Origin: Candidatus Saccharimonadota bacterium
Lineage (GTDB): Bacteria > Patescibacteriota > Saccharimonadia > Saccharimonadales > Saccharimonadaceae
Length of the DNA: 64,000 bases
Direction: 5' to 3'
Assembly (NCBI GenBank): GCA_027450165.1
Contig: DAIDKE010000003.1
Coordinates: forward strand, 62,001-126,000
Below, one piece after another: positions 49,409 through 51,535 of this stretch (its first letter is position 1; each line of letters opens with the position of its first letter). The position numbers were made by a program, and so were the translations under genes. The notes under the pieces are model-generated. The model saw only the letters and a program-made list of their open reading frames with translations. It had not been told where the DNA came from and searched no databases.

Positions 49409-49430
49409 AAAAACCGGCCTCAAGGACCGG
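49409..49430 (-). terminator. Terminator of the NHL-prepilin gene
   Basis: Short GC-rich stem CCGG...CCGG with an inner CC/GG pairing (49414-49430), followed on the minus strand by TTTTTGTATT. Located just after the NHL-prepilin stop. Confidence 0.6.
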
Positions 49431-49450
49431 AGTTGCAAATATAAGCATAT

Positions 49451-50887
49451 TTAAGATTGCGGCGTTAGTTTGCGAACGGTGTTGTTGCCGCTGTCGACCA
49501 CAAACATATTGCCCGAGGCATCAAAAACTTTGCCCGACGGTGAATGGAAGAGCGCCGCCGTGCCGACACCATCTGCGGAACCCGCGGTGCCGCAAGTGCC
49601 CGCAATCGTCGTTACTACGGCGGTTGATGTAATTTTACGAATACAATTATTGGTGGTATCGGAAAGGTAAATATTCCCAGACGAGTCGGTTATAACATCA
49701 CCGGGATTATTAAACTGTGCGGCCGCTCCGTTGCCGTCGGCGGTACCGGTGGTCGTGCCGCAAGTGCCGGCAAAAGTTGTCACCACCGCCGCTGGCGTAA
49801 TCATCCTAATACAGTTGTTGCTGGAATCGCCAACAAAGATATTGCCAGATGGCGCCACGATATCACCATGCAGCTTACCAAAGCGAGCCGCCAAGCCAGT
49901 GCCATCGGACGTACCAGAAGTGCCGCAAGTGCCGGCAAAAGTTGTCACCACCGCCGCTGGCGTGACTTTGCGTACGCAATAGCCGCTAGCCTCAGCGACG
50001 TACAGGTTACCAGACGCATCGACCGTTAAGCCGGATGGATGATTAAAGCGAGCCGCCGAGCCAGTACCATCAGTAGACGTTGCATTATTTACGATACATG
50101 TCCCGGCAAAAGTCGTGACTACTTGGTTGGAATCAATCGCCCTTATGCAACCATTGGAAAAATCGTCGACATACAAGATGCCGCCATAGTAAGCAATGCC
50201 TTCCGGGTTATTGAACGATGCTGCGGCACCGGTGCCGTTCGCCGTTCCATAAGCGCTGCCGCAAGTACCGGCAAACTGGGTCGTCACGCCAGCAGGTGTA
50301 ACTTTGCGCACACAGTTGTTGCCATATTCTGTTATGTACATATTGCCGGATGGATCAATGGTTATACTGCCTGGTTGATTTAGGCGCACAGCCGTACCGG
50401 TACCTTCGGTGGTGCCGGAAGTGCCAGCCGTACCAATAAAAGTAGCGACGCCGTAAGTAACGGACGACAAACTGCCACTGCCAGGTACACCGATAGTCCC
50501 GGAGCAAGCACCGGTATTGGCGGTGGTGTTATTACTGGTAACGAAATAGTTCAAGCCCCAGCCGCTAGCCTGTAGACAATAAACACTACCATCACCGGCC
50601 ACGTTATAGGAATAACTAACGTCAGTTGTTGAACGTAAACCGACCGTCGTGGCATCAGCCGGAAAAGTACCGGCATCCACCTGCGCCAGAGCAAGCTGCT
50701 TACTTGATTGATTAAGGTCGGCCACCAGTGCCGAAGCGTGAGCCCGTGCTGATACTCCGTTATAGGCCACGATTGTTAGCGTGGCTAGGATCGCAATCAC
50801 CACAATGACAATAATAAGTTCGACAAGTGTAAAACCCTGCCGTTTGGTTTGAGATAACGTGTGTTTAGTCACCCGCTGCATTGCCAT
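49451..50887 (-). CDS. Type IV prepilin-like protein fused to an NHL beta-propeller
   Basis: 478 residues. The N-terminus is a class III signal: QTKRQGFTLVELIIVIVVIA with cleavage expected after G18, F as first mature residue and E at +5, then the pilin helix and a pilin-like region to about 130. From about 145 to the end are six NHL repeats; a strand from SVTYGVATFIGTAG before repeat 1 could close the propeller with repeat 6. Repeats 1-5 each have two cysteines (NNC...GTC, about 17 apart), absent in repeat 6. It would be exported and built into, or anchored like, a pilus, presenting the propeller. The start may be 50881, eight bases after CACAAT. Confidence 0.88.
   Translation of the reverse strand: MAMQRVTKHTLSQTKRQGFTLVELIIVIVVIAILATLTIVAYNGVSARAHASALVADLNQSSKQLALAQVDAGTFPADATTVGLRSTTDVSYSYNVAGDGSVYCLQASGWGLNYFVTSNNTTANTGACSGTIGVPGSGSLSSVTYGVATFIGTAGTSGTTEGTGTAVRLNQPGSITIDPSGNMYITEYGNNCVRKVTPAGVTTQFAGTCGSAYGTANGTGAAASFNNPEGIAYYGGILYVDDFSNGCIRAIDSNQVVTTFAGTCIVNNATSTDGTGSAARFNHPSGLTVDASGNLYVAEASGYCVRKVTPAAVVTTFAGTCGTSGTSDGTGLAARFGKLHGDIVAPSGNIFVGDSSNNCIRMITPAAVVTTFAGTCGTTTGTADGNGAAAQFNNPGDVITDSSGNIYLSDTTNNCIRKITSTAVVTTIAGTCGTAGSADGVGTAALFHSPSGKVFDASGNMFVVDSGNNTVRKLTPQS
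49755..49798. repeat. 44-bp exact repeat inside NHL propeller, copy 1
   Basis: Identical to 49920-49963; encodes the AAVVTTFAGTCGT part of neighbouring NHL repeats. The exact nucleotide identity suggests recent duplication or gene conversion between blades. Confidence 0.85.
49920..49963. repeat. 44-bp exact repeat inside NHL propeller, copy 2
   Basis: Second copy of the 44-bp repeat at 49755-49798, 165 bases (55 codons) away, which equals one propeller blade plus linker. Confidence 0.85.
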
Positions 50888-50973
50888 TTATTGTGAAGCA
50901 TAAGCGGGACAAAGTAAAGCTCAGGTCTGGCAATCTACATGAGCGAGAATACGCTACTGAAATCCATAAATTC

Positions 50974-51059
50974 TGGTGCGCAGAGCGGGAATCGAACCCG
51001 CACGGCTTTTGGCCACGACATTTTAAGTGTCGCATGTCTACCTATTCCATCATCCGCGC
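50974..51059 (-). tRNA. tRNA-Leu (anticodon TAA)
   Basis: 86 nt with encoded CCA and a long variable arm (TGGCCAAAAGCCGT). Acceptor GCGCGGA/TCTGCGC, anticodon loop CTTAAAA giving TAA, T-loop TTCGATT. No intron in the anticodon loop. Its first ten bases overlap the 3' end of the HNH gene. Confidence 0.93.
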
Positions 51060-51535
51060 AAATATACTTTCTTGTTCTTACCACGATGCGTTGGCTGCAA
51101 ACTATGACAATTTGGACACAAAATCCGTAAATTCTCTAGTCTGTTGTCATTATGGTTACCATTAATGTGATCAAGCTCAACCGGTATGCGCCCGTCAGAA
51201 GACCTTTCACACCAGCCGCAAATTTCACACTTTGGTTGTTTAATACCAGTCTCGTATAGTCTTTTCTTCAATTTATAACTCTGAACTTGGCTGCCAAGCA
51301 TAAGTAGCCTGTCCAATTCCGGCCTAGTATGCGTATGGTATGTAAGACCACGATTCCATCTCTGGCCGGTAAAATGACCCGTGTTCAACGCTAATTCAAG
51401 AATCCTCCTTTGGACCTGAGCGTAGTTGCCCCCAGCAGGTACAAGACCAAGCTGCTTAATAACAGCCCGAATACTATAGGAAACTTTCACGGCCTCCTTT
51501 AAACTTTCGTCAGTCCACGAGCGTTTTAATGGCAT
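51050..51535 (-). CDS. HNH endonuclease ending inside tRNA-Leu
   Basis: 161 residues. The C-terminal half is an HNH nuclease: CEICGWC, then VELDHINGNHNDNRLENLRI and LCPNCHS give the zinc cysteines and the catalytic His-Asn-His set. The N-terminal half has a helix-turn-helix-like stretch (YSIRAVIKQLGLVPAGGNYA) as in phage and freestanding homing-type HNH enzymes. The stop codon lies inside tRNA-Leu, so its message must be processed at the tRNA 5' end or overlap it. TACAAT ends eight bases before the ATG with no Shine-Dalgarno. Likely a mobile-type gene. Confidence 0.88.
   Translation of the reverse strand: MPLKRSWTDESLKEAVKVSYSIRAVIKQLGLVPAGGNYAQVQRRILELALNTGHFTGQRWNRGLTYHTHTRPELDRLLMLGSQVQSYKLKKRLYETGIKQPKCEICGWCERSSDGRIPVELDHINGNHNDNRLENLRILCPNCHSLQPTHRGKNKKVYLRG

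Follow-up and report, generated by a model that had tools for sequence, protein, structure and literature searches.

A putative modular type IV pilin with a cysteine-paired NHL propeller, and the differing passengers of its head type, in a saccharibacterial genome

Saccharibacteria live on other bacteria, and the closest described relatives in design of the gene presented here are pilins that carry a binding domain. In Streptococcus sanguinis, PilB is a modular pilin and a proven adhesin, in which the binding domain is grafted on a pilin (PMC8179133). PilB and PilC of that species both join a small pilin module through a short linker to a binding domain foreign to pili, vWA or lectin (PMC8179133, PMC9934059). 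A total of 264 modular pilin architectures were counted in the first of these studies (PMC8179133), and a fusion of pilin and NHL propeller may be among them; our literature search for NHL together with pilin found no report. In Nanosynbacter lyticus TM7x, it was demonstrated that PilX2, a pilin with an RCC1 propeller, is required for normal host binding and competition, its deletion roughly halving host binding, and PilX2 is a candidate T4P-2 adhesin (PMC12206443). In S. epibionticum, moreover, the T4P genes are for the most part essential (PMC10633639). The idea of a beta-propeller at the T4P tip is also shared with the PilY1/PilC tip adhesin, although PilY1 is not a pilin.

The gene analysed here is an intact open reading frame of 478 codons, at 49451-50887 on the minus strand of the window (the whole stretch of 64,000 nucleotides that was analysed), and encodes a putative modular pilin with an NHL propeller (pilin-NHL). 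Its plan is that of S. sanguinis PilB and PilC, which have other passengers and for which a large interchangeable set is not described. With PilX2 it shares the saccharibacterial pilin and the C-terminal beta-propeller. However, PilX2 has a seven-bladed RCC1 propeller, no predicted PilD signal and a place in a pilin locus, whereas the pilin-NHL has a six-bladed NHL propeller, a canonical leader, an orphan gene and five blade cysteine pairs.

The genome that carries this gene comprises 794,205 bases and is 99.5% complete, and it contains an exact match to the TM7-580F 16S primer site, which we take to be specific to Saccharibacteria and which fits that assignment. PilB, PilT, PilC and PilD are clustered with minor pilins at C1:331-338k, a second PilB/PilC pair lies at C1:104k, and a third ATPase (T2SSE) at C3:36k. 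PilD shows the GFGD motif (GxGD) and two CxxC motifs (CLHC, CRKC). The prepilin peptidase, PilB and PilC that the first-pass annotation had wanted to see in the genome are all encoded, as is PilT, so that extension and retraction ATPases and platform proteins are available; the whole resembles the two T4P systems of TM7x (PMC12206443).

Domain layout and predicted fold

The basic prepilin leader ends in Gly and is followed by FTLVELIIVIVVIAILATLTIVAY, so that a class III signal with G-1 and E+5 is present (RQG/FTLVE). N_methyl PF07963 matched residues 15-37 with 30.9 bits (cut-off 21.2), and TIGR02532 matched above its cut-off with 29.2 bits. As in other modular pilins, an extra C-terminal domain that is not specific to pili follows on a short linker. 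The gene stands alone behind tRNA-Leu, outside the pilus operons; the features of the locus are collected in Table 1. On the other side of the tRNA, an HNH endonuclease-like ORF (window 51050-51535) overlaps the tRNA-Leu 5′ end by 10 bases.

Table 1. Features of the pilin-NHL locus, in window positions.
Feature	Position	Strand	Basis or remark
Class III prepilin leader, residues 1-17	50837..50887	-	Sequence; PF07963 and TIGR02532 above cut-offs; cleavage expected after G-1 (QG/FTLVE)
Pilin head module, residues 18-128 (N-terminal helix, Glu5, Cys104/Cys128)	50504..50836	-	phmmer; head common to 11 intact genes
Linker, residues 129-143 (~15 aa)	50459..50503	-	Sequence; pLDDT low as far as residue 141
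Closing strand, residues 144-151, fourth strand of blade 6	50435..50458	-	DSSP of AF2 model
Six-bladed NHL propeller, residues 144-478	49454..50458	-	Pfam, AF2, Foldseek
Five Cys pairs 192/209, 247/264, 304/321, 359/376, 415/432	49592..50314	-	Sequence
Blade 3/blade 4 repeats with identical 44-nt stretch (49755-49798, 49920-49963)	49755..49963	-	Includes second Cys codon
tRNA-Leu(taa), directly upstream of the pilin-NHL gene	50974..51059	-	
Terminator hairpin	49414..49430	-	Matching hairpin in congener G041 directly after tRNA-Leu
Presence/absence segment, about 1.54 kb	49431..50973	-	G041 has ~12 nt instead

The head, taken to residue 128, matched the solved pilin chains PilA, PilE and GspG (phmmer), and a bare 122-aa pilin of the same genome (L020) ends where the passengers of other genes begin. 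In the AlphaFold2 (AF2) model the head region has pLDDT below 50; a single-sequence run gave a long helix and four strands at low confidence, and the Foldseek matches to that low-confidence model were meaningless. The pilin fold is assigned to the head on sequence grounds.

The remainder of the chain matched NHL PF01436 in five stretches over threshold (E 1e-25, residues 144-478), and the sequence period of 55-56 aa defines six NHL units. The AF2 run, which used ten sequences, gave pLDDT of about 90 or more across most of these residues and 24 propeller strands, or six blades of four, of which 23 are in register after residue 171 while the 24th, at 144-151, completes blade 6. Foldseek matched the modelled propeller to the six-bladed NHL folds of Pizza6, TRIM71 and Thin with probability 1.00 (TM by target 0.8-0.87). 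In the prediction, the domain is therefore a six-bladed NHL beta-propeller with ring closure. The first-pass annotation had placed a prepilin signal and six NHL repeats on one chain and had suggested a spare N-terminal strand able to close the ring; Pfam and the sequence period confirmed the former, and the closed 24-strand model agrees with the latter. The best matches by sequence and structure, which share this fold and repeat, are the propellers of teneurin, a bacterial teneurin-like protein, NHLRC2, SOQ1, TRIM71 and Pizza6, none of which, unlike the pilin-NHL, is a pilin. NHL propellers can also bind RNA or serve as scaffolds. The model of the cyanobacterial NHL protein ScyF scored below its cut-off (NF035926, 74.9 against 350 bits), and no Pfam match to the PilY1/PilC beta-propeller domain was obtained in the 478-aa protein.

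Cysteine pairs in the propeller

The protein has twelve cysteines, one pair in the head (104/128) and ten residues in blades 1-5, where both cysteines are present in each blade (5/5, no half pair) at a spacing of exactly 17, which upholds the constant spacing noted at first pass. When ten cysteines were placed at random, three or more pairs at spacing 17 arose in 113 of 200,000 placements, against the five pairs observed, and a chance pattern was ruled out by the constant spacing and register. According to the AF2 strand limits, the first cysteine of a blade opens its strand C and the second follows its strand D by 2-3 residues, suggesting that both face the same edge. Blade 6 has no cysteine; Thr470 occurs there and Ala154 after its partner strand 144-151. 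Since blade 6 and this partner strand carry neither cysteine, five intra-blade disulfides are favoured. Pairing within blades would use every cysteine, whereas pairing between blades (209-247 and so on) would leave Cys192 and Cys432 partnerless and is disfavoured. Blades 1-5 are thus probably stapled by intra-blade disulfides, and the formation of such bonds outside the membrane is plausible because the genome encodes a VKOR (E 4e-30) with cysteine pairs. The earlier proposal of a disulfide-stabilised ring is supported by the perfect co-occurrence of the cysteines per blade and by VKOR, the bonds themselves being what we infer. Such even stapling would naturally suit a ring that perhaps has to bear pulling force.

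The second cysteine is accompanied by a longer turn (AGTCG versus AGSG). Because blades 3 and 4 share an identical 44-base stretch that includes this cysteine codon, blade-to-blade copying probably spread the cysteines, and this identity in sequence implies that the copying between blades 3 and 4 was recent. The pair pattern was absent from all 11 other pilin-NHL proteins found and from all nine non-pilin NHL homologues, ruling out a cysteine family common to pilin-NHL proteins (0/11 others with pairs). Within this comparison, the cysteine pairs are peculiar to the 478-aa protein and not a property of pilin-NHL fusions generally, a point missed at first pass.

Shared heads and differing passengers

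Judged by sequence comparison, the pilin-NHL belongs to a large pilin set in which one head type carries exchanged passengers, which the first-pass annotation had also missed. The 0.79 Mb genome contains 26 PF07963 matches, of which 18 fall on open frames of 250 aa or longer, and the head of the pilin-NHL matched about 15 places with differing C-terminal parts. Eleven intact genes have this head type, in which the two cysteines lie about 24 residues apart, close to positions 86 and 110 of the mature protein, and ten of these genes carry a passenger: three are NHL (the present gene, C3:125.8-127.1k and C2:88.3-89.6k), two are FISUMP, L014 and L018 form a pair whose likeness was judged by eye, several are unassigned, and the eleventh gene is bare. 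A twelfth head copy (L010:7432-8424, G000:C2:38431-39423), with a LamG_3 lectin passenger, is broken by an in-frame stop that closely follows the N-terminal helix. A diversity-generating retroelement was considered behind the lectin-like passengers and rejected, the genome having no reverse transcriptase. Other head types in the genome carry FGE-sulfatase-like and fn3 passengers. Three pilins of a different head type (L014:1721-3709, L023:814-2862, L023:3114-5915) have FGE-sulfatase-like passengers, by Pfam match in two of the three and by sequence similarity in the third, and one has a glycine-rich tail.

NHL was found in 17 of 198 genomes of the family, and a search for the same fusion in other Saccharibacteria, suggested at first pass, found it in eight other genomes of this family, whose ORFs were read; among 393 genomes of the class, all matches at E 1e-20 or better lie within the family. 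In relatives, the same head type carries RCC1, LamG_3, FGE, CBM_4_9, tail collar, DUF285 and FISUMP, and an RCC1 pilin with a related head occurs in G157 (L103). One protein of G126 (L112:338-2467) has fn3 and three tail-collar domains of the phage type behind a pilin head (PF07484 E 3e-49, Gp10_C E 3e-20), placing parts of the tail-fibre kind on a pilin. Prepilin counts across the 198 genomes range from 0 to at least 39; five genomes of 0.8-1.4 Mb (G072, G075, G145, G178, G187) have at least 39 matches each (48-75 candidates).

A tree of 45 heads was built over about 116 columns, a length at which resolution is limited, although the outcome of the AU test is clear. The head of the pilin-NHL is sister (98/92) to that of L010:2004-3086, whose passenger is not NHL, and the propellers closest to that of the pilin-NHL are found in G175, G193 and L013 (46-49% identity). 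The 12 NHL heads need eight changes on the tree, a number as low in 24 of 500 shuffles; one clade of NHL heads was rejected (AU p = 2.5e-5), as was one clade of the three NHL heads of this genome (p = 0.014). Since the NHL heads do not form one clade, passengers were swapped, and the histories of head and passenger are separate.

The congener G041 (81% complete) keeps the neighbourhood of the gene: ligA, htpX, lemA, DUF4342, tRNA-Leu, HNH, tRNA-Cys, tRNA-Gly, SHOCT and htrA. There, about 12 bases separate the CCA end of tRNA-Leu from the terminator hairpin, in the place where the window has a whole gene. The pilin-NHL is thus present in one congener and absent from the other, by either a gain or a loss. 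No att-like repeat was found at the empty site and no relative in viral contigs, and an origin as phage or mobile-element cargo was rejected on both grounds. Core pilins are about 62-85% identical between the two genomes, and most passengers on this head type are without a close counterpart in the part of G041 that was read, a comparison in which single absences are weak except at the tRNA-Leu site. Elsewhere in G041, five adjacent prepilin genes lie within 5 kb (L088, C3:8500-14000), four of them with the pilin-NHL's head type and long passengers. In the interval from DUF4342 to lemA, which in the window is a gap of 53 bases, G041 encodes a secreted-looking protein of 634 aa and has a frame of 343 aa that is sortase-like by eye (L162:3714-6817, C9).

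Proposed role and rival explanations

We consider it probable that the gene encodes an orphan modular minor type IV pilin that displays a disulfide-stiffened NHL propeller as an adhesin and is drawn from a swappable repertoire. PilD would cut the leader between Gly and FTLVE, and the subunit would enter a type IV pilus by way of its N-terminal helix, with Glu5, its place there being probably the tip or close to it. The Cys104-Cys128 disulfide would lock the head. The short linker would carry the propeller, whose ring the strand at its N-terminus closes and which would gain stiffness from five intra-blade disulfides formed extracellularly. The partner bound by this ring would sit on a target cell or on a surface, host recognition being the most likely purpose. 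In the repertoire to which the gene belongs, one head type is found joined to different binding domains again and again, in genes that come and go between close relatives. Cleavage, incorporation into the filament, tip position, disulfide formation and ligand binding are all steps we infer, and a tip adhesin for host or surface recognition is by analogy the likeliest role. Of the pilus-displayed adhesin put forward at first pass, the propeller fold and the pilus machinery are supported, and the adhesin is an extrapolation for which TM7x PilX2 is the closest tested analogue (PMC12206443).

The protein could instead act as a pseudopilin in type II-like secretion, or be anchored in the membrane as a surface protein; its propeller would then sit at the cell surface or help secretion, without ever becoming part of a long filament. 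The position of the gene is outside the pilus loci, the genome has a third T2SSE ATPase, and models of the GspG type (T2SS major pseudopilin) match the head, albeit weakly (TIGR01710, 36.8 bits against a cut-off of 88.85). However, the genome also has a T4P-like locus that includes PilT, PilC and PilD, the heads match T4 pilins, and in related Saccharibacteria there are two T4P, with large minor pilins (PMC12206443), so that we regard this explanation as unlikely. Somewhat less likely still is an uptake or scavenging part that captures DNA, RNA or a nutrient, which retraction draws inward. Natural transformation has been described in Saccharibacteria (PMC10633639). RNA is a ligand of some NHL domains, TRIM71 being among the Foldseek matches, and the ComP DNA-receptor model gives weak matches, below its cut-off, to the heads of sister genes; yet no nucleic-acid site was identified, and the lectin-, FISUMP- and collar-type passengers on the same head type suggest a range of ligands. 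A decaying or neutral member of a churned family, lacking a present role, would be in keeping with the absence of the gene from the same site in G041 and with the in-frame stop of the head-family copy at G000:C2:38431. Against decay, the 478 codons are intact, the ten cysteines stand in perfect register although the blades differ, and a complete ring is predicted at high confidence, which makes this the least credible of the alternatives.

Beyond the adhesin reading of the single gene, a wider proposal can be offered tentatively, at somewhat less than even chances: a combinatorial pilus-display repertoire of this saccharibacterial family, in which one interchangeable head presents at least eight kinds of binding domain that are swapped between heads and gained or lost as single genes, and which would decide the hosts caught. 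Passengers would then be exchanged much as the tips of phage tail fibres are, and the disulfide-stapled NHL propeller would, if this is true, be one hardened member. The swappable set is of larger interest than the single gene, and a 0.79 Mb genome with 26 prepilin matches and swapped passengers makes the question of host recognition testable. As a separate observation, a 702-aa pilin (L012:3517-5625, G000:C1:75.5-77.6k) has two short, near-identical pilins as neighbours, an arrangement like that of the TM7x PilX2 locus, and the long C-terminal part of the 702-aa protein has one weak match in Pfam.
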